Shown here in pieces: positions 9,560 to 62,573 of a DNA stretch of 64,000 nt. The stretch is from Haloferax marisrubri (GTDB lineage Archaea > Halobacteriota > Halobacteria > Halobacteriales > Haloferacaceae). Both the position numbers and the translations under genes were made by a program. The stretch lies in assembly GCF_001469875.2 (NCBI RefSeq), contig NZ_LOPW02000010.1, positions 381,942-445,941 on the forward strand, read 5' to 3'. Positions within the stretch are counted from its first letter, which is position 1, and every line of letters begins with the position of its first letter. The notes below the pieces were generated by a model, which was not told the DNA's origin, ran no database searches, and was given only the letters and a program-made list of their open reading frames with translations.

Positions 9560-9720
9560 GGAGTTATTGTGAACTACCCCACCCTACCGCTCGCCTGACG
9601 GCTCGCGCTTGAGGGTGGGGCTTCCTGCTTCTACGACGCGCTTTGCAGACACCGAATCGGTGTCCACAGGAAGCGCAGTCTCCACAGGCGTTGATTCGGA
9701 GCGTCCCTCTCCTACATCTT
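9560..9720 (-). ncRNA. Predicted omega RNA at the tnpB 3' end
   Basis: In this family the guide RNA scaffold comes from the last part of tnpB and the right end. The stem 9577-9585/9612-9620 would be its terminal hairpin, and the guide would be read from flanking DNA below about 9575. This is inferred from the family; no expression evidence is available. Confidence 0.35.
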
Positions 9721-15479: not shown

Positions 15480-15640
15480 CCTCCTCCCGCGCCTAAAGAC
15501 GCGGGAATCCCACCACGGGATTTCAGGCTGGTCGTAGCCCTATGGTTTCAAGACGCATACGTCCCAAGCGTCTCTTGCTTGGTAGCATCGGCTTGGGTGT
15601 CTTGTGAGGCGGTCAAACGCCCCCCATCCTCAGCCGAGTC
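15480..15640 (-). ncRNA. Predicted omega RNA of the tnpA-tnpB element
   Basis: The tnpB 3' end and the right-end hairpin at 15485-15506 are the expected guide RNA scaffold; the guide would come from DNA just below about 15480. This is inferred from the family only. Confidence 0.35.
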
Positions 15641-16783
15641 ATCGCCATCCGTGTGTTCTCTTGAATGGCTCTCTCCACTGAGGTAGCGGTCTGCGATATT
15701 TATCGCACCGTTCACGTCCGCTTGGTACTCGCCCATCCAGCAAGCGTCGTTCGTACACTTGAACGTCGCCTGTCGCGGTCGGTATCCTACTTCACCGCAG
15801 GCATGGCACTCCTTTGAGGTGTTGCGCGGGTTCACCGTCTCGACGGGGATGCCCTTCTCGACGGCCTTGTAGCGTATCTGCGCGTGGAGTTTGGCGAATC
15901 CCCATCCGTGGAGACGCCGGTTCATGAAGTCGTCGTAGTCCATCGACTCCCGTATGTTCGTCAGGTCTTCCAGAACAAGAACAGGATTCTCGACGGACTC
16001 GGCGTACTCCACGACTTTGCGGGTGACGCGGTGGAACACGTCGTCGATCTGTCTCCACACGTCATTCCCGAAGGACTCCGCGATACGTTCGCTCCCGCGC
16101 GTCTGGAGTCGGCGCTTGGCGGTGAAGTAGGTCTTACGGTGACGACGAACGGTCTTGCCCTCGTCGGCCCACAGTTCGGGCGCGGTCGGAGAACCGTGGT
16201 CGTCGCGGTGACACACCGTGACGAGTGACGCTTCCCCGATGTCCACTCCGATGGGCGTCCGTTCTTCTGCGGACACCTCGGAGCGTTCCTCCACGTCGCG
16301 GGTGGCGGTGACGTGGAGATACCACGTTCCGTCCCGCTCGAACAGCCGACTCTCGCCCATCGTGGCGTCCCCCGCGTTTAACGCTTCCAGCCAGCCCCGC
16401 TGTTCGGGATTCGGTTGTGCTGGCATCCAGAGGTGGTAGTCCTCGTGGTGCGGGATTTTGACGTACCACTCGATAGCGTTCTCGGGCTTGTGGTCGAACC
16501 GTAGCCCCTCGTTGGTGAAGCGCACAGGGTGGTCGTCGTGAAGTTCGCCCGCGTTGTACGTCGTTGTGAGTTGCGGGACGTACTTCTTGAGCACGTTCTT
16601 CGCGTACCCGCTCAGGTCGTAGTTGACCACCACGTCGTTCGCTTCGGTCTGCGTGGTACATCGGGCGTCGAAGGCGTCTTGAAGGGCGTGTTTGTACGCT
16701 TCTCGCGTCTCTCGGAGTTTCCTCCGCTTGTGGGCGTTCGGGTCCACAAGTTTGAGTTCCAGAGTTTTCGTGAGTTCGGTCAC
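15548..16783 (-). CDS. tnpB: TnpB RNA-guided nuclease (411 residues)
   Basis: A TnpB protein with all RuvC-like residues: PIGVDIGEASLVT (Asp), LVLEDLTNIRESMDYD (Glu) and YQADVNGAINIADR (Asp). The zinc finger is CHACGEVGYRPRQATFKC...C. It resembles the 411-residue TnpB at 14.0-15.2 kb along its length, more than the 407-residue one. The start ATG overlaps the tnpA stop, so the two are translationally coupled. Confidence 0.9.
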   Translation of the reverse strand: MTELTKTLELKLVDPNAHKRRKLRETREAYKHALQDAFDARCTTQTEANDVVVNYDLSGYAKNVLKKYVPQLTTTYNAGELHDDHPVRFTNEGLRFDHKPENAIEWYVKIPHHEDYHLWMPAQPNPEQRGWLEALNAGDATMGESRLFERDGTWYLHVTATRDVEERSEVSAEERTPIGVDIGEASLVTVCHRDDHGSPTAPELWADEGKTVRRHRKTYFTAKRRLQTRGSERIAESFGNDVWRQIDDVFHRVTRKVVEYAESVENPVLVLEDLTNIRESMDYDDFMNRRLHGWGFAKLHAQIRYKAVEKGIPVETVNPRNTSKECHACGEVGYRPRQATFKCTNDACWMGEYQADVNGAINIADRYLSGESHSREHTDGDDSAEDGGRLTASQDTQADATKQETLGTYAS

Positions 16784-17169
16784 GAGTCGCCCTCCTTGTG
16801 CTGTTGAATGTAGTTCTCGACAGTCTCACTTGAAACATGCCCGGCGGTCCCTGCGTAGTATCCTCGCGCCCATCCGATTTTCTCGCCGTCGTGGTCGGCG
16901 TATCGGTGGTTGTACTTGCGCGAGGAGATACCCTTGAACCAGTTGGCGAGTAGCGCCGGTTCGTTCTTGGGTGGGCTACTGACGAACAGGTGAACGTGGT
17001 CCGGCTGTACGGTGAGGTCGAGTATTTCGACGCCTTTGTCGTCGGCTATTTCGTGGAGGATAGTTCTCACACGGTCTGCAACCTCATTGACGAGTACCGA
17101 TTGACGGTACTTCGGCAACCACACTATGTGGTAGTTGAGGTTGTAAGTCGCGTGCCGTGTGGTCTTCAT
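16780..17169 (-). CDS. tnpA: TnpA, IS200-type Y1 single-strand transposase
   Basis: A 129-residue HUH-class transposase of normal length. The HUH metal-binding pair is in VQPDHVHLFVSSPP and the catalytic tyrosine in ETVENYIQQH. The N-terminus YNLNYHIVWLPKYRQSVL is the family signature. It acts on single-stranded ends by recognising subterminal hairpins, which are present at both ends of this element. It is apparently intact. Confidence 0.93.
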   Translation of the reverse strand: MKTTRHATYNLNYHIVWLPKYRQSVLVNEVADRVRTILHEIADDKGVEILDLTVQPDHVHLFVSSPPKNEPALLANWFKGISSRKYNHRYADHDGEKIGWARGYYAGTAGHVSSETVENYIQQHKEGDS

Positions 17170-45654: not shown

Positions 45655-45663
45655 CTATATAAC
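45655..45663 (+). promoter_or_regulatory. TATA box before GTG 45695
   Basis: CTATATAAC is centred 36 bases before the GTG at 45695, placing transcription start just before it and supporting that start over the 45479 frame. Confidence 0.5.
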
Positions 45664-45694: not shown

Positions 45695-48600
45695 GTGCGG
45701 ACAGATGTGCCTCCACACACATCACCACAGACAGCGCTCAGTCGTACTGTAACGGTGCTACTCGTGTTAGTACTCACGACCGCGACGTTTCCCGCCGGTG
45801 CGGCGGGCGTCGCGGCGGCGGAGGACGCGAGCGCACTCGATTCGAGCGTCCAGTCGGCGATGAACGCGTCCGCGCCGGCGGCCGTGACCATCACCGAACT
45901 CCAGTCGAACACGTCCGACGGCGACGCGTCGGCCTACGCGGGGCAGTTCGTCAGCGTCACCGGGACGGTGACCGCGACGAACGCCGACGGCTTCTTCCTG
46001 CAGAACGCCTCCGCGGCCGACGTGCGGCACAGCGCCGTCTACGTCTACGCGGGCGGGTCGTCGAACGCGACCCCCGGCGACGAGGTGCGCGTCGACGCGC
46101 CCGTCACCGAGTACTACGGCCTGACCCAACTCGACCTGACGAACGACAGCGCCTCGCTGTCGACGACCGGAAGCGGGTCGGTCCCCGAGGCGACCGTCCT
46201 CGCGACGGAAAATGTCTCCCAAGAGGCCTACGAGAGCGTGCTCGTCAGCGTGCGCGACGTGGAAGTCACGGCGACGCCCGGCCAGTACGGCGAGTGGGCC
46301 GTCACCGACGGCTCCGGGCCGGTCGCTATCGACGACGTGACGACGGGCGACGACACCACGCCCTCGGAGGTCGGCAGCACCGCCGACGCCATCGAGGGAC
46401 CGGTGTTCTACAGCTTCGAGGAGTACAAGATTCAGCCCGCGTCGGTGACGAACCTGACCGCCCCCGCGGGCGGTGACGCCGGCAACGACACCGCGGGCGC
46501 GAATGCGACGACAATCACGCTCGTCGGCTTCAACGACATCGGCAAGGCGGCCGCCGGCTCCGGCGACGACAAACTCGGTCGGATGATCACGCTCATCAAC
46601 CGCGAGCGCGCCAACGCCTCCGGCCCCGTCTTCGTGGCCGGCGGCGGCGACGAACTCAGTCCGCACGCCCTCCGCAACTACGACGGGCTGGAGCACGGCT
46701 ACGAGCCGCCGGTGACGGCGATGAACCTCATCGACCCCGACGCCGAGGTCGTCCAGAACCACGAACTCGACTACGACGAGGACGCGGGGACGAACGACTT
46801 CGCCGTCTTCGAGGCCATCGCCAACGAGTCGACCTACCCGTGGCTCCTCGCCAACGTCGTCCACGAGGAGACCGGCGAGAACCTCCCCGGGACGCAGAAC
46901 TACACCGTCGTCGAGCGCGGCGGTGTCAGAGTCGGCTTCTTCGGCCTGACCGACGAGGCCATCAACGCAAAGACCGACGGCGTCATCGAGCGCAACGGCT
47001 ACACCGTCGTCGACCCGACGACCGCCGCCCAGCGGACCGTCGACACGCTCCGCACCGAGGAGGACGTGGACGTGGTCGTCGCGCTGGCTCCGGTCGGCAT
47101 TCCGGACTCGAAGGACCTCGCCCGAAACGTCGATGGCATCGACGCGCTCGTCTCCGGCGACGACCAACAGCGCTACCCGCCGCAGACCACCAACGGCGTC
47201 CTCATCGGCGAGACCACCGGCAAGGCAAACGCCATCATGCGGATGGAACTGACCGTCGATAACGGGAGCGTCACCGACGCCTCCGGCGAACTCGTCGACG
47301 TGACGACCGACGTGCCGCGCAACGACTCGTGGCAGATGTACATCAACCCGCTCCGCGAGGGCTATCTCAACACGGAACTCGCGACGGCGGTCATGCCCGA
47401 GCACACGGGCGTCGGCTCCAGCTACACCGACGACTCCGCGACGGGCCACCTCGTCACCGACGGCGTCCGTGGCTACACCGGTGCCGACGTGGCCGTGACG
47501 AACGCCGGCGGCATCCGCGACACGCTCTACCCGAGCGAGTACGGTCCGGGCGAGGAGTTCAACATCACCCGCGGGATGGTGACCTCGACGCTCTCGTTCG
47601 GCAACCACATCGTCGTGGTCGAGGTGACCGGCGCGGAACTCCGCGAGGTCGTCAAGAGCCAAATCACGCCGCTGGAGATGGACAACCAGTACGGCACCCA
47701 GACCCAACAGCAGGTCAGCGGCGTCACCTTCGAGTGGGTGCCCCACACCGATAGCTCGTCGCCCGGCGAGGGCGACGCGACGATTCGCGACCTCACGGTG
47801 AACGGCGAACCCGTCAACGACTCGGCGACCTACACGCTGGCGACGAACTCCTACATCGCCGACGGCGGTAGTGGCTACCCGCTCGCCGACAAGCCGCGCG
47901 TGACTGTCCTGAACGAGACGACGATGGCCGACGGCGTCATCGGCTACCTGCAGAACCGCTCGACCATCGCGGCCGCCGAAGTCGACACCGAGTCCGACGA
48001 CCGGATGCGCCGGGTCGACACGGCGGTTGACGCCGACGCGGTCGACGTGACGAGCGACGACGGCCAGACGACGGTCACTATCGACGCACCCTCGCGCGTG
48101 ACCGGCGTGAGTGGGACCGCCGCCTTCGCCGACCGCAACGGCGGCTACGTCGAGACGACGAACGTCGCCTACGACGACGCGAGCGGCACCATCACGGTCA
48201 CGGTGCCGACGAGCGACCTCGACGCCTTCGAATCGTCGGTGACCGCGCCGGACTCGGGCGTCGACCTCTACGTCGACTACACCGACAGCGCGTATTCGAG
48301 CCAGTACGAGAACTTCGATTCGGCCGTGCTGAACGCCGACCTCGACAGCGAGGCGACCACGCCCGACCCGACACCTGAACCGGCAGACGGCGTCGCGCTC
48401 GCGGTCGGCTCGGACGCCCAATCCGTCCCCCTCGGCGACACGCAGACGTTCGATATCACCGCGAGTGACGCCGAAAGCGGCGTCGGCGCGTACGAACTGA
48501 CGCTCACGGTCGGCGATTCGAGCGTGGCCCGCATCACGGCCGTGCAGTTCCCCGATGAACCCGGCTTCTCGGCGGTCAACGTCAGCGACGACGGCAGTAC

Positions 48601-49021
48601 GGTCCACGTCGAGGCCGCTGGCATCGACGCCGCCGACGACGCGAACGACTCGCAGGTTCTGGCGACCGTGACGGTCGAGGGCGTCGCGCTCGGCGGTTCG
48701 ACGGCGCTCGAACTGACCCCGACGGCGACCTACGACCCCAACGGAACGGCCTACGCGGTGTCGCGCATCGACAACCGCCCGGTCGGCGTCGAACCCGGTG
48801 ACCTTACTGGCAACGGCCGCGCGATGGCCGACCACGACGGCGACGGCACCTTCGAGGACGTGAACGGCGACGGCAGCGTGGACGTCGTGGACGCCCAGGC
48901 GCTGTTTGTGAACCGCAACGCCGAGCCGGTCCAGTCGAGCACCCCCGCGTTCGACCTCAACGACGATGGTCGCGTCGACGTGGGCGACGTGCAGCGGCTG
49001 TTCGCCTCGACGAATGCGTAA
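45695..49021 (+). CDS. Secreted 5'-nucleotidase-fold protein with cohesin-like module and dockerin
   Basis: Started at GTG 45695 (MRTDVPPHTSPQTALSRTV), giving 1108 residues; the longer frame precedes the TATA box. Order: signal peptide; an OB-fold nucleic-acid-binding-like domain (about 45-185); a 5'-nucleotidase (UshA/NucA) fold with both halves (about 270-780); a cohesin-like module (about 898-1034); a dockerin (about 1045-1108; loops DVNGDGSVDVVDAQALF and DLNDDGRVDVGDVQRLF). Metal-ligand motifs are altered: GFNDIGK replaces the usual DxH, and SGDDQQR replaces GGHSH, so phosphatase activity is doubtful. The stop overlaps the start of a PGF-anchored cohesin gene. Confidence 0.88.
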   Translation: MRTDVPPHTSPQTALSRTVTVLLVLVLTTATFPAGAAGVAAAEDASALDSSVQSAMNASAPAAVTITELQSNTSDGDASAYAGQFVSVTGTVTATNADGFFLQNASAADVRHSAVYVYAGGSSNATPGDEVRVDAPVTEYYGLTQLDLTNDSASLSTTGSGSVPEATVLATENVSQEAYESVLVSVRDVEVTATPGQYGEWAVTDGSGPVAIDDVTTGDDTTPSEVGSTADAIEGPVFYSFEEYKIQPASVTNLTAPAGGDAGNDTAGANATTITLVGFNDIGKAAAGSGDDKLGRMITLINRERANASGPVFVAGGGDELSPHALRNYDGLEHGYEPPVTAMNLIDPDAEVVQNHELDYDEDAGTNDFAVFEAIANESTYPWLLANVVHEETGENLPGTQNYTVVERGGVRVGFFGLTDEAINAKTDGVIERNGYTVVDPTTAAQRTVDTLRTEEDVDVVVALAPVGIPDSKDLARNVDGIDALVSGDDQQRYPPQTTNGVLIGETTGKANAIMRMELTVDNGSVTDASGELVDVTTDVPRNDSWQMYINPLREGYLNTELATAVMPEHTGVGSSYTDDSATGHLVTDGVRGYTGADVAVTNAGGIRDTLYPSEYGPGEEFNITRGMVTSTLSFGNHIVVVEVTGAELREVVKSQITPLEMDNQYGTQTQQQVSGVTFEWVPHTDSSSPGEGDATIRDLTVNGEPVNDSATYTLATNSYIADGGSGYPLADKPRVTVLNETTMADGVIGYLQNRSTIAAAEVDTESDDRMRRVDTAVDADAVDVTSDDGQTTVTIDAPSRVTGVSGTAAFADRNGGYVETTNVAYDDASGTITVTVPTSDLDAFESSVTAPDSGVDLYVDYTDSAYSSQYENFDSAVLNADLDSEATTPDPTPEPADGVALAVGSDAQSVPLGDTQTFDITASDAESGVGAYELTLTVGDSSVARITAVQFPDEPGFSAVNVSDDGSTVHVEAAGIDAADDANDSQVLATVTVEGVALGGSTALELTPTATYDPNGTAYAVSRIDNRPVGVEPGDLTGNGRAMADHDGDGTFEDVNGDGSVDVVDAQALFVNRNAEPVQSSTPAFDLNDDGRVDVGDVQRLFASTNA

Positions 49022-49922
49022 GCCCAACCCGAACTGGACCGGCCGGAGCGCGCTTGCGGTGTTCGCGGCGCTCGTCTGTCTGAGCGCCGTCGCGCCGCCC
49101 GCGCTCGCCGCGACCGACACGACCGTCGGCTTCGACACCGACGCGGCGACCGTCGAACCCGACTCGACGCGGACGTTCGACATCGTCGTCGACAGCGCCG
49201 ACGCTGGCGTCGGTGCGTACAACCTGACGGTCGAACTCGACGACGCATCTGTCGGTCGCATCGCCGAGGTCGCCACCCCCGACGGCACCGACCCGCGACT
49301 GCGGGACGTGTCGTACGACACCGAGCGCACGGTCGCCTCGGTTCGCGTCGTCGGCCTCGACACCGACGACACCGGCTCGGTCGCCGTCGCGACCGTCACC
49401 GTCGAAACTGCGGATGCCACCGGTGACGGCGCGCTCGACGTGTCCGTGTCCGCCCTCGGCGATGAGGACGGCAACGCCTACACCGTCACCGACACGTCGG
49501 GACTGGACCTCTCCGTCTCGCAGTCGGCTGGTGGCGGGGGCACCGGCGGTGGTGGCGGTGGCGGTGACTCCGCCGCCGACACCGGTGACTCGACTGCCGA
49601 TGGCGACGACACCGACGGCGATTCGGACTCAGGGCGAGACGGCGATTCCGGCACGGACGACGAGTCGGCCGACGTGACCGACCAGCCCGCGACCACCGAG
49701 CCGCCGGCGGAGTCGCCAACCCCCGCCGCGTCACCCGCGAGTCCGACGACAGCCGACGACGGTGCGACGACCGCCAGCGCGACAGACACGCAGTCCGCGA
49801 CCGAGACGACCGAGCGCCGGACGACGGCAACCGGCGTCCCCGGCTTCGGCGTCGCTCCCGCGGTCGCCGCCATCACAGCGCTCCTGTTCGGGTTCGGACG
49901 CCGGGCGCGGTGCGAGAACTGA
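49014..49922 (+). CDS. PGF-anchored cohesin-like surface protein
   Basis: Started at ATG 49014, overlapping the dockerin gene's stop by 8 bases (ATGCGTAA). A 302-residue protein: a signal peptide (about 1-37), one cohesin-like module (about 38-170; VEPDSTRTFDIVVDSADAGV, GAYNLTVEL), a Gly- then Asp-rich linker, a Thr/Pro-rich stalk and a PGF-type C-terminus (VPGFGVAPAVAAITALLFGF, then RR). Archaeosortase ArtA recognises such ends and attaches the protein to lipid. It has no dockerin, so it is a candidate anchor for dockerin-bearing proteins. The coupling to the preceding gene supports this. Confidence 0.88.
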   Translation: MRKPNPNWTGRSALAVFAALVCLSAVAPPALAATDTTVGFDTDAATVEPDSTRTFDIVVDSADAGVGAYNLTVELDDASVGRIAEVATPDGTDPRLRDVSYDTERTVASVRVVGLDTDDTGSVAVATVTVETADATGDGALDVSVSALGDEDGNAYTVTDTSGLDLSVSQSAGGGGTGGGGGGGDSAADTGDSTADGDDTDGDSDSGRDGDSGTDDESADVTDQPATTEPPAESPTPAASPASPTTADDGATTASATDTQSATETTERRTTATGVPGFGVAPAVAAITALLFGFGRRARCEN

Positions 49923-49986: not shown

Positions 49987-50592
49987 ATGAACGGCCCGGA
50001 CACCGCGGACGAAACGAGCTTCTATTTCGACTACGAGCTACAGGTCGATGCGACCCGTGACGCCGTAGCGAAGCTCGCTCGTGAGGTCCTCCAGTACGAG
50101 TGGGCCGACTACCTCCGTGCGTCCCCGCCGGAGGGTCCCCACACGTGGCACGCCCTCGACTCGGGGAAGCCGTGGGGCCGCGTCACGCCCGCGGCGTGGG
50201 AGCGCGGCCGCGACCGCGGCTACGACCTCCACTTCGAGCACTACCCGACGCCGCGCGCCCTCCAGCGTGGACAGTTCCGCCTCGAACTCCACCTCGAAGA
50301 CGGTATCCACGGCGACGCCGACTTCTCGGGCGACTCGCCGTACGCGGCGCTCCGCGAGCGACTCGTCGCGGCGCTCGACGAGGTGCGCGACGAACACGAC
50401 GACCTCCCGGCCGGCGAGTTCGGCACCGGGCGGACGCTCTGGCGGGTCGACTCCCACTTCCTCGCGGGCGACACCGTCGCCTACTACGAGGCGCTCCGCG
50501 AGGCGCTGTCGGCGCACGACGCGTTCGTCGACGCCGTGGCGGCCGTCCTCGACGACGAACTCCCCGAGCGCGACCCGTTCGAGCGCGACTGA
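49987..50592 (+). CDS. Conserved hypothetical protein
   Basis: A 201-residue soluble protein (MNGPDTADETSFYFDYELQV). It has aromatic- and charge-rich stretches (EWADYLRASPPEGPHTWHAL, GYDLHFEHYPTPRALQRGQF) and an acidic C-terminus. No family is recognised. A TATA-like AATCTTTATC lies at 49953-49962, and a GGAGG sequence sits directly before the ATG. It lies inside the surface-protein region but has no signal peptide. Confidence 0.7.
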   Translation: MNGPDTADETSFYFDYELQVDATRDAVAKLAREVLQYEWADYLRASPPEGPHTWHALDSGKPWGRVTPAAWERGRDRGYDLHFEHYPTPRALQRGQFRLELHLEDGIHGDADFSGDSPYAALRERLVAALDEVRDEHDDLPAGEFGTGRTLWRVDSHFLAGDTVAYYEALREALSAHDAFVDAVAAVLDDELPERDPFERD

Positions 50593-52299: not shown

Positions 52300-55203
52300 A
52301 TGGCACGGAACACAACGCGTTCTGTTGGGTGGGTAGCGCTGAGCATCTTCGTCTGTGGATTACTCGTGACTGCACCAGTTGGTGCGGTCAGCGTGGGCAC
52401 GTCCACGACGGACGGGGGAACGACCCCCGCACAACTGAGTAACACGACGGTAACCGTCGACGAGTCCGGAGGGGCGGACTACCTGCGGATTCAAGCGGCG
52501 ATAGACAACGTCTCTGCCGGGTCGACGGTCGAAGTCCGACCGGGGACGTATCGCGAAGCGGTGACGGTCGACAAGAGTCTCACGCTTACCGCGCCGGACG
52601 GCGCGGTGCTGAACGGGTCGACGCTCGACTCCGAGGCGAGCGCGGTAACCATCGTCGGAGACGCCGAGCCGCTGATTTCGGGCTTTACTATCACTCGCTA
52701 CGGTACCACGGGCATCGACGCACAGGGGACGACCGGTGCGTGGGAGGCCACCGACCTCGAAATCGCCGAGACTGACGGCTTCATGGGGACCGGCGTCAAC
52801 GCCGAAGGTTCGAGTGGGAACTGGGTCGTCTCTGACACGCTCGTCCGAGACAGCTACCGAAACGGGGTCAACGCCCGACAGTCGAACGGTTCGTGGCTGC
52901 TCGAAAACGTCACCGTGACTGACACCGTGTTCGGCAACGGCATCCGCGCCGACGAATCGACGGGTGACTGGGTGATGCGGAACGCGACCGTTTCTGACAC
53001 GCGGGACGACACCACCGGTATCGCGGTGTTCGAGACCGTCGGCGACTGGACGATTACTGAAACGACGGTCGTCAACAACTCCCGCGACGGAATCGAAGCG
53101 ACGAACACGGTCGGTTCGTGGCGGATTACGAACAGCACCGTCGCCGAAAACGGGCAGTTCGGCGTCAATGTCGGCGGTCCCGCGACGGCGACCACGACCG
53201 GTGCGAACTGGTCGATTATCGGGGCGACCATCGAGTCGAACGGCGATGCGGGCATCAACGCCGAGGAAGTGACCGGGCCGTGGCGGGTTCACGAGACCCG
53301 ATTGGTCGATAACGGAGTCGGTGTCGACGCGACCGGAGCGGCCGAGCGCGGCGCTGTTGAGCGGAACTGGTGGGGAGCGACGGACGGCCCGTCGGGCGTG
53401 GCAAACGGTTCCGGTGACGCCGCGACCGGGAACCTCTCGGTCACGCCGTACTACACCGATTCGGCACTGACGGCGCTCTCGACTGCCTCGGCTGGCGATG
53501 GCGTCGACGTGTCTACGTCGGCGACGATGATCTCGCCGGACGAACCGGGGGCGCTTCGGACGGAACTCACCAATACCGGTGACACCGCCGTCTCGACCGC
53601 CGTCGTCTTCGACGACCTCGCGGGCGTGACCGTCCGAGAGGCGGACGCCAGCGCCGGCACCTGGGACAACGACACCGACGAGTGGGAGATTGGAGCCCTG
53701 CAAGCGGGCGCGAGCGCTTCCTTGACGCTCGACGTGAGTGCAGACACCTCCGGAACGTCGCTCCCGTCCGAGCGGAACGTCTCGGCGACGATGACCACCG
53801 GTGAGACGACCCAGTCGCTCAGCTACCCGGTCACCGTGGCGGCGGCCGATGACCTCTCAATGACCGTCGGAACCGTGACCGCGGAGACAGGTGAGACGGT
53901 CGTAATTCCCATCGAGACGGAACCGGTCCGCGGCGGCGTCTATTACGCCGGAACCGTCTCGTTCGACGCGTCGGTTGTGCACGTCGCGAACGTCTCGATG
54001 GACGACGAAGACGCGTTCGTCTGGTCGGAGGCCGACAACCAGAACGGAACCGTCGAGTTCGGCATCGAGAGCGCCGACTACCTCACAGACCCGGTTGTGA
54101 ACGTGACGTTCGACGTCGTCGGAGATAGTGGGACGGCGACTGCAGTAAACGTCAGCGACCGGACGGTCTACACGACCGGCGCGGATTACGTCGGCTTCCC
54201 CGTGACCAACGGGTCGGTCAGCGTCGCGTCCGGAGAGGGTGACACGGGCGACACGGCCCCGCCCGAACTCGATAGCGAGGCTGTACAGCAAGACGACGAC
54301 ATCGCCGTGACCGTCTCCTCGAACGAGTCGCTCGCGTCGCTCACGGGAGTGCTCTCCGACAGCGATAGCGTGTACCGCGAGCAGATCACGCTGAGTGCGT
54401 TCGACGAATCGGTCCTGAACGGGACGTACGTGTACGAGACCGTGTACGGCGGGGCCGGCGACGGCGAGTACGAGTTCACCGCGACCGCGACCGACACCGC
54501 CGGTAACGAGGTGACGGAGACGGAGACGTTCCTCATCGGCACCCAGTCGAGTAACGACTCGACGATACGGCTCTCCGTCGAAACGCCGACCGAGGCCGTC
54601 GGCGTAAACGACACCGCGCCCGTCGAACTCGTCGCCGGCGACGTCGACTCCTTCGTCGGCGCGTACGAGGCGACCGTGTCGGTCCCCGCCGAGTCGGGCG
54701 TCCGTTTCACGTCGGCGAACGTTACCGGCTCGCCCGCGTTCTCGGACGCGGAGTACAGCGAGAACAACACGACAGTCCGACTGAGCGCCGTGGGGATGGA
54801 GACTGCAGACGGACCGTCGCCGGACCTCGCCGAACTTACGGTGGCTGTGGACCGGGTCAGCGGAGAGCGCGAGGAACAGATACCGGTCACGGTCTCGAAC
54901 GCGAACGTCTCCGACGAGAACGGAACTGAACTGTCCGTTGAGTCCACGGAGAACGGCACGCTGGACGTCGTGACGCTGTCGGCAATCGGGCCGAGCGAAC
55001 TGCCCCCGACGGACCCGGACGGTGACGGCCACTACGAGGACGTCAACGGCGACGGGAACGTGACCGTCTCGGACGTACAAGCACTCTTCACCAGCCGAGA
55101 CGACGCGAGCGTCCGCGAACAGGCCTCGCTGTTCGACTTCAACGACAACGGACGGTTCAACATCGTCGACATCCAGCGCCTGTTCTACACCGAACTGGTC
55201 TGA
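52300..55203 (+). CDS. Secreted beta-helix protein with two cohesin-like modules and a dockerin
   Basis: A 967-residue protein. After a signal peptide (VGWVALSIFVCGLLVTAPVG), a right-handed beta-helix region of the pectate-lyase/NosD type covers about 55-370 (YLRIQAAIDNVSAGSTVEV, then repeated NGVNA, NGIRA, DGIEA turns). A Big-like domain follows. Cohesin-like module one is about 516-644 and two about 753-894 (VNDTAPVELVAGDVDSFVGA). The dockerin (about 904-967) has loops DVNGDGNVTVSDVQALF and DFNDNGRFNIVDIQRLF. With two cohesins plus a dockerin it could bridge partners. No lyase active site can be confirmed. Confidence 0.88.
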   Translation: MARNTTRSVGWVALSIFVCGLLVTAPVGAVSVGTSTTDGGTTPAQLSNTTVTVDESGGADYLRIQAAIDNVSAGSTVEVRPGTYREAVTVDKSLTLTAPDGAVLNGSTLDSEASAVTIVGDAEPLISGFTITRYGTTGIDAQGTTGAWEATDLEIAETDGFMGTGVNAEGSSGNWVVSDTLVRDSYRNGVNARQSNGSWLLENVTVTDTVFGNGIRADESTGDWVMRNATVSDTRDDTTGIAVFETVGDWTITETTVVNNSRDGIEATNTVGSWRITNSTVAENGQFGVNVGGPATATTTGANWSIIGATIESNGDAGINAEEVTGPWRVHETRLVDNGVGVDATGAAERGAVERNWWGATDGPSGVANGSGDAATGNLSVTPYYTDSALTALSTASAGDGVDVSTSATMISPDEPGALRTELTNTGDTAVSTAVVFDDLAGVTVREADASAGTWDNDTDEWEIGALQAGASASLTLDVSADTSGTSLPSERNVSATMTTGETTQSLSYPVTVAAADDLSMTVGTVTAETGETVVIPIETEPVRGGVYYAGTVSFDASVVHVANVSMDDEDAFVWSEADNQNGTVEFGIESADYLTDPVVNVTFDVVGDSGTATAVNVSDRTVYTTGADYVGFPVTNGSVSVASGEGDTGDTAPPELDSEAVQQDDDIAVTVSSNESLASLTGVLSDSDSVYREQITLSAFDESVLNGTYVYETVYGGAGDGEYEFTATATDTAGNEVTETETFLIGTQSSNDSTIRLSVETPTEAVGVNDTAPVELVAGDVDSFVGAYEATVSVPAESGVRFTSANVTGSPAFSDAEYSENNTTVRLSAVGMETADGPSPDLAELTVAVDRVSGEREEQIPVTVSNANVSDENGTELSVESTENGTLDVVTLSAIGPSELPPTDPDGDGHYEDVNGDGNVTVSDVQALFTSRDDASVREQASLFDFNDNGRFNIVDIQRLFYTELV

Positions 55204-56042: not shown

Positions 56043-57023
56043 ATGAAACTGAAAGCGCGGCACGGTTTCCTGCTGCTTCTGGCGCTCGCGCTCGCCGTCG
56101 CGCCCGGGGTGAGCGCCGCGGCCGGGTCGACGGCCGTCGCGCTCGAACCGACGAACCAGACGGTCGAGAACGGCGAGACGGCGACGTTCGACGTGGTCGT
56201 GACGAACGCCTCCGGCGGCGTCGGCGCGGCGAACATCTCGTTCTCGGTCGCCAACGAGACGGCGACCATCACGCAGGTCGCGTTCAGTCACGAGACGGCC
56301 GAGGTCACCACGACGTACGCGAGTGACAACAGCTCTGCGACGCTCACCGGCTACGGACTCGACACGAACCAGACCGGCTCGGTGGTCGTCGCCACCGTCA
56401 CGGTCGAAGGGAACGCGACGAGTACGGCCGAAACCATGGTCACGCCGCACGTCAATGCGCTCGGTGACGAGGACGGCAACGACTACACGGTGAGCGAGGA
56501 GCAGTCCGCACAGCTTGAGGTGACGACTTCCTCGTCGGGCGGTGGCGGCTCCGACGGCGGGGACGACAGCGACGGTGATGGTGGCTCCGGTGACGGCGGC
56601 GACGGTGACACAGAATCGGCGACCGTCACCAACCTCTCGGTCGGCACGACCGATGTCGAGACCGGCGAGAACGTCGAAGTCACGGCGACCGTCCTGAACG
56701 ACGGCGACGTGACGACGAACGCGACGGTCAACCTCACGGTCGACGGGGCGGTCCGAACGACGAAGACCGTCTCCGACCTCGACCCCGGCAACGAATCGAC
56801 CGTCGTGTTCCTCCTGGCGTTCCAGCAGGCGGGGACGTACAACCTCTCCGTCGGCGGCGAGTGGGCGACGGTCACGGTCGCCGAGCCGGACACGACCACC
56901 TCCGACCCGGTGACGACCTCAACGCCGACGGAGACGGAGAGCCAAGCGCCCGGCTTCGGCGTGCTGACGGCGCTCCTCTCGCTGGTCGCGCTCGTCGGTG
57001 CGGCGCGTCTGCGGGCCGAGTAA
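56043..57023 (+). CDS. PGF-anchored surface protein with cohesin-like and CARDB-like domains
   Basis: A 326-residue protein: a signal peptide (1-27), a cohesin-like module (about 28-158; TVENGETATFDVVVTNASGG), an acidic Gly/Asp linker, a CARDB-like domain (about 195-285; NVEVTATVLNDGDVTTNATV), a Thr-rich stalk and a PGF-CTERM end (QAPGFGVLTALLSLVALVGA). It resembles the anchored cohesin protein at 49.0-49.9 kb but carries one extra domain. It lacks a dockerin and is a second candidate anchor. The FtsX-like transporter genes follow it. Confidence 0.88.
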   Translation: MKLKARHGFLLLLALALAVAPGVSAAAGSTAVALEPTNQTVENGETATFDVVVTNASGGVGAANISFSVANETATITQVAFSHETAEVTTTYASDNSSATLTGYGLDTNQTGSVVVATVTVEGNATSTAETMVTPHVNALGDEDGNDYTVSEEQSAQLEVTTSSSGGGGSDGGDDSDGDGGSGDGGDGDTESATVTNLSVGTTDVETGENVEVTATVLNDGDVTTNATVNLTVDGAVRTTKTVSDLDPGNESTVVFLLAFQQAGTYNLSVGGEWATVTVAEPDTTTSDPVTTSTPTETESQAPGFGVLTALLSLVALVGAARLRAE

Positions 57024-57213: not shown

Positions 57214-60186
57214 ATGGGCTACCGTCGAGCACTTTCGTTCAGCTGGGAGACGCGCGACACACTCGCGGTGCTCGTTATCGCCCTCACCGTCTCGTTTCTC
57301 GTTGGCGCCGCGGTTCTCGGCGTCTCGCTCGGCCAGCAGACGACGACTATCTCCGACGAGTTCGGGACGAGCTACCACGTCGAGCGCGCGGCCTCTCCGT
57401 CGAGCGTCGCGGGCGCGAGCGACTCCGAAGTCCAACTCGTCTTCGTTCGCGCGACCATCGATGGGACGCCCGCGACGATTGTGGGTATCCCGCCGGATGC
57501 GCCGGAACTCACCGTCCGGGGACAGACAATCGACTTCCCACGGCCGGCCACCGGAACGCTCGCCGTCGTCGGCGGACCGCCTTCTGGCGAGACCGTCACG
57601 CTCGAAGCGGATGGGACGGCGACGACGGCCACGGTCGCAGGCCGTTCGGGTCATCAGGTCCTCCGAGATAGCTGGTACATCACCCGCACCGAGACGGTTT
57701 CGGAGTTCGAGGCGACCGAGGTAGTCACCATCGAACGGGCGGACGGCGAACCGGCGACGCCGCTGTTGTCGGCGCTCCAGTTCTTCGTCCGCGGCACCGA
57801 CCAACTAGTCCGCCTGCTCCAACTCGCGACGCTCGCGAGCGGGATTCTCGTCGGCGTGACGACGTACAGCGTCATCCGACTCACGGTCAAAGAGCGGCGG
57901 CCGGATATCGCCGTGCTCCGCTCGACGGGCGCGACGCCGCGGCAAATCGTCGGCGTGTATACGCTCCGCGCCATCACGCTCGCGGCCATTGGGCTGGCGC
58001 TCGGCTACAGTATCGGCGTCATACTCGTCCGTGCGGTCCTGAACGCGGCCGTGTACGCCGGCCTCCCGACCTCGCTCGCGCTCGCGCTCACGCCGACGGT
58101 CGTCCAACTGCTCGGACTGGCGGCCGCCGTGCTTCTCGTCGCCGGCGTCGTCGCCGGCCTGACCGCGTCGTACCCCGAAGCGACGAAACCGCTGGACCGG
58201 CTGTCGTCGCCGGGACAGCCGACCGCCGAAGGCTCCCGGTCGCCGCTCAAACGACTGTTCGAGACGCGGCTGCTCGGGTGGGAGGCGACCGTGCCTACCG
58301 TCGCAACGCTGAGCGTGTTCATGGGCGTGGTGCTGTTGCTGTCGGCCGTCATCGGCGCGGTCGGCCCGCTGTCGGGCGTCGGCCAGCAGACGATTACAGA
58401 GCCGGACGCACCGCATCCCATCGCCAGTAACGTCCCGGAGTCGTACGCGTCCGCGCTCCGCAGTCAGGGCGTCGCGGTCAGCCCGGAGATTCTCCTCTTC
58501 GAAGTGTACCGCAGTACGCCGTTCGTCGCCCGGGGGGTGAACTACTCCGCGTACGAGTCGTTGGCGCACACGACGCTGACGGCGGGACGGGAACCGACCG
58601 GCGACGACGAGGCGCTCATCGGGGCGAGCCTCGCCGAGGCGACCGACCTCGCAGTCGGCGACACGCTCGTTCTCGGCGGCAGCACGACCCCCGGAATCAC
58701 GCGAATCGAAATCGTGGGACGGTTCGCCGGAACCGGTGTCCAAGACGACCAACTGTTGGTGTCGCTCGACACGGCGCGTCATCTCACGACGACGGGGGAT
58801 AACGGGGTTCAGTTCATCAGAACCAGCGGCCTCGCCGACGGCGGGACAAACACGTCCACAATCGTGGTCACCGACGCGACGGTCACCCGTCGTGATGGGA
58901 ACTTCGGCGTCGCCGTCGAGGCCACGAACCTCGGGCTGAGCGACGCCTCGCGGCCCGTCTCGGTCACGCTCGGCGACGCGACGGCGGAGGCCGCGCTCTC
59001 GGTGCCCAGTCGCCGGTCGACGACGACGTTCGTCGCGTTCGAGACGCCGCCGGAAGGCACCGTCTCCCTCTCGGTGGCCGACGTGACGAAGTCGGTGACG
59101 GTCGACGAGCGAGGCCGCGTCGTCGAGCCACTTCGCGTGACCATCCCCACGTCGATACCCGTCGGGAGCGCGCCGCGAGTCAGCGTCTCGCGGGGCGGCG
59201 AGCCGGTCGCGAACGCGACGGTCTTGGTCGACGGCCGGAGTCAGACCCAAACGATGGACGCGAGCGGGGCGACCCGCGTCCGGTTCAACGAGACCGGGAC
59301 GTCCGTCGTGTCGGTTCGCGCCGGCTCCCAACAGCGTAACACCACCGTGACCGTCTCCGACGACGCGACTCGGCGACCGGTCCAGACGCTCTCGCTCTCG
59401 CCGCAGGCCCCGACGCTGTTCACGTCGCCGACGGTGACGGCGCGACTCAGTAACCCGTGGGCACAGCGGCTGAACGCGACGGTGACCATTCGCGGCCCGG
59501 GGACGAACGTCGAGCGGGCCGTCTCGCTCGCACCGGGCGGAAGCGGTCGCGTCTCGGCGACCCTCCCACAGCGACCGGCCGGAGCGTACACCGTCTCGTC
59601 GCAGGTCGGCGCGGGCGAGGAGACGACGCTCACCTACCGCGTCCGAGGCGACGAGCGGTTGGCGACGGCGCTCGCGGGGAGCGGTCGCTACACGAGCGGC
59701 GGCGGCATCGCACAGGCGATTCAGCTCGTCTTCGGGAACCTCGAAGTGCTCCTCGCCGCGGTCGTCGCGCTCGTGAGCCTCATGACGGTCGGGAGCACGA
59801 CCGCGGCGTTCACGCGGAGCACCTACGGCGTTCGGAAGACCATCGGCGTGTACCGCGTGACCGGGGCGCGCCGGACCGACGTCCTCCGGCTCGTCCTCTT
59901 CGACACGCTGAAAGTCGGCCTCGTCGCGTCGGTCGTCGCGTTCGCCATCGCCACCGCGGCGGTGACGGCGCTCCTGTCGCTCGGCGAACTCCGCGTGTTC
60001 GGCGTCGCGCTCACGCCGGTGTTCTCGCCCGGCGTCGTCGCCGGGATGGTTCTCGCGGGCCTCGGACTCGCGGTCACGAGCGCCTGTCTCGCGACGGGCT
60101 ATCTGTTGCTGCAGGACCCCGCCGCACTCTTAGTGGATAGACATATACCGACGCCCGAGGGAGAGGAACGTATCACCAATGAGTAA
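57214..60186 (+). CDS. FtsX-like ABC permease with large extracellular domains
   Basis: A 990-residue permease of the FtsX/MacB/LolC type. TM1 is near the N-terminus, followed by an extracellular domain (about 38-190; [26 protein letters not shown]). The first FtsX core (about 195-310) contains ERRPDIAVLRSTGATPRQIV. A second, larger extracellular region (about 390-830) includes Ig-like sequence. The C-terminal FtsX core (about 855-990) contains GVRKTIGVYRVTGARRTDVL. It shares many motifs with the permease at 62.6 kb. Probably exports or releases surface proteins or lipids. Confidence 0.85.
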   Translation: MGYRRALSFSWETRDTLAVLVIALTVSFLVGAAVLGVSLGQQTTTISDEFGTSYHVERAASPSSVAGASDSEVQLVFVRATIDGTPATIVGIPPDAPELTVRGQTIDFPRPATGTLAVVGGPPSGETVTLEADGTATTATVAGRSGHQVLRDSWYITRTETVSEFEATEVVTIERADGEPATPLLSALQFFVRGTDQLVRLLQLATLASGILVGVTTYSVIRLTVKERRPDIAVLRSTGATPRQIVGVYTLRAITLAAIGLALGYSIGVILVRAVLNAAVYAGLPTSLALALTPTVVQLLGLAAAVLLVAGVVAGLTASYPEATKPLDRLSSPGQPTAEGSRSPLKRLFETRLLGWEATVPTVATLSVFMGVVLLLSAVIGAVGPLSGVGQQTITEPDAPHPIASNVPESYASALRSQGVAVSPEILLFEVYRSTPFVARGVNYSAYESLAHTTLTAGREPTGDDEALIGASLAEATDLAVGDTLVLGGSTTPGITRIEIVGRFAGTGVQDDQLLVSLDTARHLTTTGDNGVQFIRTSGLADGGTNTSTIVVTDATVTRRDGNFGVAVEATNLGLSDASRPVSVTLGDATAEAALSVPSRRSTTTFVAFETPPEGTVSLSVADVTKSVTVDERGRVVEPLRVTIPTSIPVGSAPRVSVSRGGEPVANATVLVDGRSQTQTMDASGATRVRFNETGTSVVSVRAGSQQRNTTVTVSDDATRRPVQTLSLSPQAPTLFTSPTVTARLSNPWAQRLNATVTIRGPGTNVERAVSLAPGGSGRVSATLPQRPAGAYTVSSQVGAGEETTLTYRVRGDERLATALAGSGRYTSGGGIAQAIQLVFGNLEVLLAAVVALVSLMTVGSTTAAFTRSTYGVRKTIGVYRVTGARRTDVLRLVLFDTLKVGLVASVVAFAIATAAVTALLSLGELRVFGVALTPVFSPGVVAGMVLAGLGLAVTSACLATGYLLLQDPAALLVDRHIPTPEGEERITNE

Positions 60187-61843
60187 CGGACGCCGCCGCG
60201 GATTCGTGATTCTCATCGCGGGTGTCGCCCTCGCGTTCGCCCTCCGCGCCCTCCCCCTTTATTGGAGCGGCTATCCCTCTACGCTCGACGGATTCGACTA
60301 CGCGTGGTTAGCGAAGACGGCCACGGAGACGGGGTCGCTCCCCCTCACGCAGCGAGCAGATAACCTCGTGTTCAGCACCTATCTGAGCGTCGTGTCGCTC
60401 GTCACCGACGCCGTTCCCCTCCGATCGATTCAGCCGCTTGCGACGGCCGTTGGCGGGATTATCTGTTTCGTCGGCGGCGTCGTCGCTCGCCGCGTGCTCC
60501 GCGACAGCGGGTCGCGCGACGAGACCGCCACGGCGGTCGGGGCGGTGACGGCGACGCTCCTCGCCATTCAGGGGCTGTTCCTCCGTCGGACCGCCGTTCC
60601 CGACGAGGAGATACTCGGCATCCTCCTCGTGATTACCCTCGCGTTCTGCCTGCATCTCGCGCTCCGCAGTCAGCGCCTCCGCTGGTGGCTCGTCGTCGGG
60701 CTGCTCCTCGCCGTGTTCCCGATGACGCACACGTTCTCGACGTTCATCGCCGCGCTCGTCGTGACCGCGCTCGTCGTGCGCCACGTCTCCGTGCGGCTCT
60801 CGCTCCGGTCGGTGCTCGGGCCGGGCGCACTCGCGGTCGCCTTCTGGGCGTACATGTTTTCGTACTACCGCTTCGCCGAGTCGTCGACGACGCTCAGCGT
60901 CCCGTACGTGAACCGAGTCATGGCCTATCCCGGACTCTTCCTCGCGTGGCTCATCCTCCTCGCCATCGGCATCGTGTGGGTCCAACAGACCGGCCGCCGG
61001 GTCAAGCAGGTCTCGTATCTCGCCGTCGTCGGCTCCTTCTTCGCCATCGTCGGGCTCAACGCCGTCTCGCCGATATTCCCGGGGACGACCCAGACGCCGC
61101 CGCTCATCTTGGGGCTCGTCGCGATTCTCGGCGTGTTCGCGGTCACCGCCGCCTTCGGGCTCGAACTGTTCGAGTCGTACCGCGGCGGCGCGATACCGAC
61201 GGCGATGTTCCTCGCGCCGGTCACCATCATCGGGTTCGGCCTCACCGCGTCGCTCACGCCCGAGTACTACGACACGGTCATGCGCGCCCAGACCTTCCTG
61301 CACGTCCCGGCGGCGATGCTCGTCGGCGTCGTTCTCGTGCGCCTCCTGCAGGGCGTCTCGCGTTCGACCTCGGGACGAACGCTCCGTCTCGCGCTCGTCG
61401 CGCTCGTGCTCGTCTCGACGCTGGCGACCGCGCCGCTCGCGTATCTCACGATGGACACCGCGACCGTCCCGACCACGACGTACGAGTCGGAGTTCGAAGG
61501 CGTCCGGTTCGCGTCCACGCACACCGACTCGCCGTGGGTGAGCGACCACTCGCTGACGCGGGTCGGCGCGCACTACTTCAAGGCACAGGTCGGCTACAGC
61601 GCCGTCGCGAACTGGCTCTCCGGCGGGCCAAGCCCTGACTGTCTCGTCATCTCACAGCACTCGTGGACGACGACCGGTGCCCACCTCTTCCCGAACGCGC
61701 CGGGGACCGTCTCGGCCACCACGTACGCCGAGTGGACCGCGACGCGCAACGTCGTCTACGCAAACACCGGGAACGACCCCGTCTCGGTGTCCCGGCCGGT
61801 CGGGAACGCGACGTGCGCGGCCGCGACGAACCAGACGGTGTGA
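60179..61843 (+). CDS. Polytopic membrane protein, GT-C glycosyltransferase-like
   Basis: Overlaps the permease gene by 8 bases. A 554-residue protein with about 12 hydrophobic segments. The first extracellular loop contains LDGFDYAWLAKTATETGSLP, with an acidic motif in the position typical of GT-C enzymes such as AglB-type oligosaccharyltransferases. The C-terminal soluble part (about 440-554) is extracellular-like and ends in a polar tail. Remote similarity only; a role in glycosylating the neighbouring surface proteins is inference. Confidence 0.65.
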   Translation: MSNGRRRGFVILIAGVALAFALRALPLYWSGYPSTLDGFDYAWLAKTATETGSLPLTQRADNLVFSTYLSVVSLVTDAVPLRSIQPLATAVGGIICFVGGVVARRVLRDSGSRDETATAVGAVTATLLAIQGLFLRRTAVPDEEILGILLVITLAFCLHLALRSQRLRWWLVVGLLLAVFPMTHTFSTFIAALVVTALVVRHVSVRLSLRSVLGPGALAVAFWAYMFSYYRFAESSTTLSVPYVNRVMAYPGLFLAWLILLAIGIVWVQQTGRRVKQVSYLAVVGSFFAIVGLNAVSPIFPGTTQTPPLILGLVAILGVFAVTAAFGLELFESYRGGAIPTAMFLAPVTIIGFGLTASLTPEYYDTVMRAQTFLHVPAAMLVGVVLVRLLQGVSRSTSGRTLRLALVALVLVSTLATAPLAYLTMDTATVPTTTYESEFEGVRFASTHTDSPWVSDHSLTRVGAHYFKAQVGYSAVANWLSGGPSPDCLVISQHSWTTTGAHLFPNAPGTVSATTYAEWTATRNVVYANTGNDPVSVSRPVGNATCAAATNQTV

Positions 61844-61856
61844 CCGAGTAGCCGTA

Positions 61857-61866
61857 CACTATACAT
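61857..61866 (+). promoter_or_regulatory. TATA box before the LolD/MacB-type ATPase gene
   Basis: CACTATACAT lies 27-36 bases before ATG 61893 and touches the alternative GTG at 61869, which argues for the ATG start. Confidence 0.55.
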
Positions 61867-61892
61867 AGGTGAAGCATGAAGGGAGCATATCG

Positions 61893-62573
61893 ATGACGGG
61901 CCCCGTACTGCGCGGCGATTCGCTCACCGTCGAACGCGGTGACTCCACCATTCTCGCGGACGTCTCCATCACCGTCGAGCCCGACACCTCCCTCCTCATT
62001 CAAGGCCCGAGCGGTGCCGGGAAGACGACGCTGTTCAACGTCCTCGGACTGCTCAGCACCCCGACGAGCGGCTCGCTGTACGTCCACGGCGACGACACGA
62101 GCGCGCTTCCCGAGCGCAAACGCGCCGTCCTCCGGCGGGACGCAATCGGGTTCGTGTTTCAGGACTTCCAGCTCATCCCGGACCTGACCGCGTGGGACAA
62201 CGCCGCGCTCCCACAGGACCACACCCGGAGCCGAGACGAGGCGTGGCTCGACACGCTGTTCGACGCCCTCGACATTTTAGACCTCAAAGACCAGTATCCG
62301 GCGACACTCAGCGGCGGGGAGAAACAGCGCGTCGCCATCGCCCGCGCCCTCGCCAACCGGCCGGACGTCGTCTTCGCCGACGAGCCGACGGGCCAACTCG
62401 ACCCGGAAACCGCAGAGCGCGTCCTCGACCTCCTGTTCCGGGTCAAAGACCAGACGGACACCGCGCTCGTCGTCATCAGCCACGACCCCACGCTGTCCGA
62501 CCAGTTCGAGGAGACGCACGTGCTGATAGACGGCTCGCTCCGCCGAAAATCGGACGAGCGCATCCCGCAATGA
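61893..62573 (+). CDS. LolD/MacB-type ABC transporter ATPase
   Basis: Started at ATG 61893 ([20 protein letters not shown]), giving 226 residues; the GTG at 61869 lies at the TATA box. Walker [11 protein letters not shown]-loop [10 protein letters not shown], signature [15 protein letters not shown], Walker [10 protein letters not shown] and the switch histidine in VVISHDP are all present. It is the expected partner of the two FtsX-like permeases around it. Confidence 0.92.

Follow-up and report, generated by a model that had tools for sequence, protein, structure and literature searches.

An overlapping dockerin and anchored-cohesin gene pair in Haloferax marisrubri is likely to encode a cell-surface display unit

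We analysed a 64,000-nucleotide (nt) stretch of the Haloferax marisrubri genome (contig NZ_LOPW02000010.1, positions 381,942 to 445,941; hereafter the window), in which a gene for a secreted, dockerin-bearing protein (gene 1) overlaps the start of a gene for an anchored cohesin (gene 2). The two genes are likely to form a cell-surface display unit. Gene 1 encodes a secreted 5'-nucleotidase-fold protein with a calcium-binding dockerin at its end; this protein probably serves in binding or is a weakened enzyme. Gene 2 supplies a cohesin, which a flexible linker joins to a PGF/transmembrane tail; archaeosortase A probably cuts this tail and links it to lipid. The gene 1 dockerin would dock extracellularly in the gene 2 cohesin, keeping the gene 1 protein on the cell. 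A promoter before gene 1 would drive co-transcription of both genes, and ribosomes finishing gene 1 would re-initiate on gene 2 at its ATG within the overlap. This reading is favoured by the conservation of the overlap, the gene order, a match of module classes, a signal at dockerin F-hand positions 10 and 11, a precedent in Archaeoglobus fulgidus and the presence of archaeosortase A. The features of the pair, with the evidence for each in brackets, are as follows.

45656-45662, + strand: TATATAA promoter-like element, putative in function, some 33-39 nt before the likely start of gene 1 (sequence)
45695-49021, + strand: gene 1, secreted 5'-nucleotidase-fold protein with cohesin and dockerin, 1108 amino acids (aa) from GTG 45695 (open reading frames [ORFs], domain searches)
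46583-47893, + strand: 5'-nucleotidase fold with changed metal-site residues (alignment to 3ivd and UshA; PF02872; motif comparison)
48398-48790, + strand: predicted gene 1 cohesin module, class 1 (profile; AlphaFold2 model with a predicted local distance difference test score, pLDDT, of 84.5; cohesin matches at Z 15.2)
48803-49009, + strand: gene 1 dockerin module with two calcium-binding F-hand repeats, class 1 (PF00404, alignments)
49014-49021, + strand: stop/start overlap ATGCGTAA, 8 nt (sequence; kept in 7/7 Haloferax pairs)
49014-49922, + strand: gene 2, anchored cohesin protein, 302 aa (sequence)
49014-49109, + strand: gene 2 signal peptide (sequence, by eye)
49110-49526, + strand: predicted gene 2 cohesin module, class 1 (AlphaFold2 model with mean pLDDT 94 and predicted template modelling score, pTM, 0.87; top Foldseek and VIA-align matches are cohesins)
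49530-49838, + strand: gene 2 linker rich in Gly, Asp, Ser and Thr (sequence)
49839-49919, + strand: PGF motif, hydrophobic segment and basic tail of gene 2, a PGF-CTERM-like anchor (sequence)

The original prediction, made on this DNA before the present analysis, had placed the ATG of the anchored-cohesin gene within the last codons of the dockerin gene, and this was confirmed. Gene 1 ends in ACG AAT GCG TAA, with its stop at 49019-49021, and gene 2 opens with ATG CGT AAG, its ATG lying at 49014. This start is credible because it yields MRKPNPNW and a signal peptide and because relatives conserve it; a longer mechanical ORF from 48966 was rejected on the conserved start. Exactly 8 nt of overlap were found in all seven Haloferax genomes that carry the pair, with variation in the stop codon and end residues. 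The overlap takes three sequences among them: ATGCGTAA in five (including H. mucosum), ATGTGTAA in one and ATGACTGA in H. massiliensis. We rejected the view that the overlap is limited to part of Haloferax, as an apparent +4 gap in H. mucosum was an error of start choice and an in-frame ATG gives 8 nt. Orthologues of gene 1 at full length and close orthologues of gene 2 occur together in the same seven of the 14 Haloferax genomes searched, and the other seven gave neither a comparable gene 2 match nor a full-length gene 1 match. The named relatives are Haloferax, Halobellus and Halorubrum species, of which the closest (96, 93, 77 and 61%) are all Haloferax.

Overlap as such is not rare here. 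With genes called by our own caller, four of 37 same-strand neighbour pairs in the 103-kilobase (kb) region overlap, and in two of the four the overlap is 8 nt long. Another 8-nt stop/start overlap lies at window 60179-60186, between an FtsX-type gene and the next gene, and the length of the overlap by itself is therefore not special. A short overlap alone is ordinary; the retention of exactly 8 nt in all seven Haloferax pairs is not.

Searches of gene 2 against Pfam and NCBIfam returned no family, including the cohesin family PF00963, and a whole-genome PF00963 search gave matches in two other places only. Matches to solved structures by sequence were weak (E 0.08 to a cohesin, E 0.018 to a cohesin-like module). 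The AlphaFold2 model, for which the input was 26 sequences from the window and the named relatives, found its best PDB match in the cohesin CaCohA2 (6kgf_A; Z 15.1, 130 residues, root mean square deviation [rmsd] 2.4). The Archaeoglobus fulgidus cohesin 2xdh also matched closely (Z 14.3, 124 residues, rmsd 2.4), and the top Foldseek rows listed were cohesins or cohesin-like modules. The curated PF00963 profile is too narrow for the gene 2 lineage, and we therefore call the module a cohesin by its predicted fold and not by Pfam membership. The idea that gene 2 is no cohesin since Pfam is silent was rejected by the same fold search, which bears out the cohesin originally assigned to gene 2, invisible though it is to both family databases.

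The C terminus of gene 2, VPGFGVAPAVAAITALLFGFGRRARCEN, combines a PGF motif, a hydrophobic segment and a basic tail. Neither TIGR04126 nor PF18204 (PGF_CTERM) matched gene 2 at E 0.01 or 0.05, and for this reason we label the tail PGF-CTERM-like and not a full PGF-CTERM. The same genome encodes an archaeosortase A homologue (TIGR04125, 340.4 bits against a cut-off of 75) that could process gene 2.

Gene 1 has an uncertain exact start, with 45707 and 45764 as alternatives to 45695. Its dockerin, also named in the original prediction, was readily recovered: PF00404 scored 27.1 bits against a cut-off of 22.9 and both repeats align, as in a type I dockerin. The earlier note was silent on the cohesin that gene 1 itself carries at 48398-48790, which is a cohesin by its modelled fold; fold-search matches of the gene 1 model span this cohesin only. 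An OB/DUF5689-like region was weak and below cut-off.

The nucleotidase assignment is strong as regards the fold (PF02872, E 5e-31), and the alignment matches solved nucleotidases. Gene 1 resembles UshA-type 5'-nucleotidases in its two-domain fold and in the substrate-domain motifs NAGGIR and GGSGYP, but differs from them at the metal site, where VALAH has become VALAP, GH has become GD and DxQ has become DIG. The metal ligands are here taken to be those of UshA. These changes, with Pro in place of the VALAH His, occur in all nine gene 1-type (cohesin-dockerin) sequences; the GD change is common to most of the wider haloarchaeal family, and the Pro change is found in the gene 1 type and at locus L023. 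Gene 1 thus departs from an active 5'-nucleotidase in its N-terminal metal-ligand residues. Activity is doubtful because these positions are changed, and with a metal site that looks degenerate the protein may be a pseudoenzyme or a nucleotide-binding protein.

We assessed whether dockerin and anchored-cohesin genes adjoin one another in other haloarchaea, using our own simple gene caller and defining an anchored cohesin as a protein with a cohesin, no dockerin and a C-terminal hydrophobic segment. The first set drew its gene context from all 47 family genomes with a gene 2 match, though not from every hit, and its loci were chosen by a match to gene 1 or gene 2 and not by adjacency. Among its 44 anchored cohesins, 29 lie directly downstream of a same-strand dockerin gene, seven are divergent neighbours of one, two lie two genes downstream and six have no such neighbour. 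The 29 span eight genera, with gaps from -8 to +142 nt (at or below +10 nt in 16).

Genomes G070 and G127 led to a second cohesin class, which had matches in 112 of the order's 392 genomes and in 40 of its 95 genera. From the matches listed, 40 loci were hand-picked, about one or a few per genus and with printed pairs favoured. Counting recognised anchored cohesins only, all 31 in this set lie directly downstream of a dockerin gene (23 genera). Eight of the 40 loci have one or more cohesin-dockerin genes with no recognised cohesin-only gene alongside, and in one (G247) the neighbouring cohesin has no called C-terminal hydrophobic segment. The class-2 client in G070 is a PhoX alkaline phosphatase (PF05787), an identity established by Pfam in that protein only, the other second-class clients being of similar length.

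Over both sets, 60 of 75 anchored cohesins are directly downstream of a dockerin gene, including 31/31 in the PhoX-type set, and seven more are divergent neighbours. The order of the genes is fixed: the anchored cohesin was the downstream neighbour 60 times and the upstream neighbour once. Outside Haloferax the overlap is mostly lost and the adjacency kept. The adjacency recurs in other haloarchaeal genomes, as originally predicted, and we uphold the original interpretation of a client and its surface anchor as the most likely reading.

Two classes can be told apart among the cohesins, and likewise among the dockerins. Between classes, cohesins have a mean identity of 0.24 and dockerins one of 0.43; the within-class values are 0.33-0.49 and 0.52-0.63, respectively. 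The class of the anchor cohesin equals that of the upstream dockerin in 60 of 60 same-strand pairs (27 class 1, 33 class 2), and among 100 cohesin-dockerin proteins the cohesin and dockerin of a single protein agree in 99. Since many of the loci counted had served to train the class profiles, the count was redone on proteins outside the training loci. There the classes matched in 16/16 neighbour pairs (10 same-strand, 6 divergent) and in 36/37 own cohesin/dockerin combinations, of which class 2 contributed only two pairs and six own combinations, two of the six marginal.

The largest differences between the dockerin classes fall, in each of the two repeats, at F-hand positions 10 and 11 (Jensen-Shannon divergence [JSD] 0.70, 0.48, 0.75 and 0.64). 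A rank test of these positions against the other 65, on rounded values and with shared ancestry ignored, gave p = 0.001. Positions 14 and 18 also differ strongly between the classes. In bacterial dockerins, positions 10 and 11 are described as specificity determinants (PMC8063739), and the recognition positions listed in a further report are 10, 11, 17, 18 and 22 (PMC3413522). On the cohesin side, anchor and client modules form separate lineages, with seven label changes on the class 1 tree against at least 30 when labels were shuffled and one against at least 19 in class 2. Cohesins in the anchor and in the client may therefore differ in role.

Gene 1 and gene 2 lie on the same strand at -8 nt, within the range of -8 to +10 nt over which pairs in H. 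volcanii were treated as coupled (PMC10666635). In that report, 253 of the 560 unidirectional pairs at -8 to +10 nt encoded complex subunits, compared with 51 of the 910 above 20 nt, and a 20-nt gap nearly abolished restart. Elsewhere, strict coupling is reported for 13 of 14 pairs, comprising overlapping H. volcanii pairs and E. coli pairs (PMC6728339). In its spacing, the pair of gene 1 and gene 2 thus resembles the overlapping, coupled pairs of H. volcanii (PMC6728339, PMC10666635). No AT-rich promoter-like element was found in the stretch searched before the gene 2 start and one precedes gene 1; a single transcript for the two genes is therefore likely. A sigma-70 promoter scan gave nothing useful, as expected for an archaeon. 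The gap exceeds +50 nt in 19 of 60 same-strand dockerin/anchored-cohesin pairs, and coupling is therefore no general requirement of such pairs. Of the earlier proposal that coupling holds the two proteins in a fixed ratio, coupling stands as plausible, given the spacing and the lack of a promoter-like element before gene 2, and the fixed ratio goes beyond what the sequences support.

The overlap might instead be ordinary genome compaction, with gene 2 translated independently, which we regard as unlikely. Short overlaps are common in the region, as many as 560 unidirectional H. volcanii pairs lie at -8 to +10 nt (PMC10666635), and gaps above +20 nt are frequent for the same pair in other genera. 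The H. volcanii spacing data support coupling here, yet they also show that short spacing is common. Compaction does not sit well with exactly 8 nt being kept across three overlap sequences, nor with the strict coupling of nearly all overlapping H. volcanii and E. coli pairs tested (PMC6728339).

Several observations weigh against the display unit as a whole. The class split is one old divergence, and the matched pairs are accordingly not independent. Class-differing cohesin positions were not enriched on strands 3, 5, 6 and 8, the expected docking face (mean JSD 0.230 against 0.219, p = 0.65), the two top class-differing sites both lying on strand 3. The PGF_CTERM profiles were silent on gene 2, and three of the six first-set anchored cohesins without a dockerin neighbour are orthologues of the gene at window 56043. 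A gene 1 orthologue in G070, a member of another genus, is 63% identical and has no adjoining anchor gene. The cohesin that gene 1 itself carries also means that the gene 1 dockerin may bind elsewhere than in gene 2. With this cohesin and five other strong class-1 dockerins in the genome, gene 1 and gene 2 may not be exclusive partners.

An arrangement with a considerable chance of being right, if somewhat below even, is that gene 2 is one of several interchangeable anchors open to any class-1 dockerin, the overlap serving only to co-regulate. Whole-genome searches found six strong class-1 dockerins (gene 1 and the five others) against only three class-1 anchored cohesins, namely gene 2, the gene at 56043 and a gene at C10:461739 (in C10 coordinates, C10:383912 is window 1971). 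Matching is also by class and not by pair. In G070 both modules of the gene 1 orthologue are class 2, unlike in Haloferax, and the genome encodes a class-2 anchor elsewhere, as sharing needs, as well as a class-1 anchor adjoining a class-1 dockerin gene. However, the three class-1 anchors each lie near a different dockerin gene, and the kept overlap suggests some pairing preference. It is quite unlikely that the gene 1 dockerin mainly binds the cohesin of another gene 1 molecule or of another cohesin-dockerin protein, with gene 2 at most starting a chain. The near-universal agreement of own modules and the two class-2 modules of the G070 orthologue would fit such self-assembly, but it alone does not need anchored cohesins beside dockerin genes, and the anchored cohesins form lineages of their own. 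Least probable, and very unlikely in our view, are cohesin-like modules that act only as structural spacers, their adjacency reflecting shared descent of a module cluster. The lack of a Pfam match in gene 2, its E of 0.08 to the best solved cohesin and the null result at the docking face fit spacers; the fold match is nevertheless specific to cohesins, the A. fulgidus cohesin included, and spacers leave the class match and the signal at dockerin recognition positions unexplained.

For the display unit, the closest precedent comes from A. fulgidus, where the ORF2375 dockerin is reported to bind the ORF2376 cohesin with calcium (PMC9705933). As here, the dockerin and the cohesin belong to different, consecutively numbered archaeal ORFs, and 2xdh is among the closest folds to gene 2. 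ORF2375 presumably carries a cohesin as well. The Haloferax system differs in the PGF-type tail of the anchor, the nucleotidase fold of the client and the existence of two module classes. Cohesins and dockerins of anaerobic methanotrophic (ANME) archaea are likewise non-cellulosomal and include proteins with one dockerin and cohesins; the clients described in those reports are mainly transport substrate-binding proteins, and their accounts of ANME do not describe a conserved client-anchor gene pair (PMC9012536, PMC5244752). The bacterial cellulosome is alike in outline, with a dockerin client docking on a surface-anchored cohesin and the same folds, but the haloarchaeal anchor is not of the SLH or sortase-LPXTG kind. 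In a Pfam scan of the cohesin/dockerin genes of the window and locus L010, with the gene at C10:276000-289000 left out, we found no multi-cohesin scaffoldin, cellulose-binding module or glycoside hydrolase.

Archaeal cohesin-dockerin binding and the client/anchor architecture are already known from A. fulgidus, as are cohesin/dockerin proteins from ANME (PMC9012536, PMC5244752). Our literature searches, whose coverage excluded most subscription journals, found no haloarchaeal cohesin/dockerin pair. In the literature searched we met neither the order-wide client-anchor pair nor its two matched classes, its PhoX client or its conserved overlap, but the survey by Peer et al. (2009), reportedly one of non-cellulosomal modules, may include haloarchaeal examples. 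What cohesins and dockerins do outside cellulose-degrading bacteria has been called unknown (PMC5244752), and a conserved client-plus-anchor pair in genetically tractable haloarchaea allows a direct test of a non-cellulosomal one. Pfam dockerin and cohesin searches gave no match in the control genome of H. volcanii, which should therefore be a clean host. If the proposed unit is correct, haloarchaea would display enzymes such as PhoX phosphatase, and not only cellulases, by a plug-and-socket system, and the two classes would be candidate orthogonal, salt-loving module sets.

Domain and profile searches identified four further cohesin or dockerin genes in the window.

1971-4151, + strand: GLUG-repeat protein with cohesin and dockerin, no anchor gene alongside
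4751-8014, + strand: MG2-domain protein with cohesin and dockerin, no anchor gene alongside, start uncertain
52300-55203, + strand: beta-helix protein with two cohesin-like modules and a dockerin
56043-57023, + strand: second anchored cohesin (cohesin, CARDB, PGF), two genes downstream of the 52300 dockerin gene

The genome has seven dockerin genes, six of which fall, along with all its anchored cohesins, within about 79 kb (C10:383912-462590); the seventh dockerin is at C10:282 kb. A fourth anchored protein, at C10:449445, has a weak Pfam cohesin match and lies directly downstream of a dockerin gene. The anchored cohesin at C10:461739 is divergent from a gene for a dockerin-only subtilase, about 240 nt away (C10:459262-462590), with orthologues at L103-L106 and the arrangement present in five Haloferax genomes; judged by their modules, the two are a predicted client-anchor pair in a different gene arrangement. 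A further reading, which we consider improbable, is that haloarchaea assemble secreted proteins into calcium-dependent chains at the cell surface. An anchored cohesin would begin each chain, cohesin-dockerin proteins (gene 1 among them) would lengthen it head to tail, and dockerin-only proteins, for example the subtilase next to window 80 kb, would terminate it; two non-crossing classes (PhoX type and gene 1 type) would keep the chains apart.

The gene for the PhoX-type cohesin-dockerin protein followed by an anchored-cohesin gene recurs across the order (L124-L163, for example L127:2538-5928), and the literature searches made found nothing on this pair. Several genera carry a three-gene run (L063:894-10409 and similar loci) of an approximately 2000-aa malectin/PKD protein, a PKD-cohesin-dockerin protein and an anchored cohesin; in some genomes the malectin/PKD protein itself ends in a dockerin. 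After the second anchored-cohesin gene (window 57214-62573, on into L010) lie genes for FtsX-type permeases, an ABC ATPase and a PMT_2-like membrane protein, and this linkage is kept in several Haloferax. Judged by eye, ORFs at window 9584-10807, 14014-15249 and 15548-17169 resemble IS200/IS605-type transposon genes. Finally, 64 nt below gene 2 lies the gene for a 201-aa protein without a Pfam match (window 49987-50592), which has its own AT-rich element upstream and keeps this spacing in six of the seven Haloferax loci, one of these six having 63 nt.

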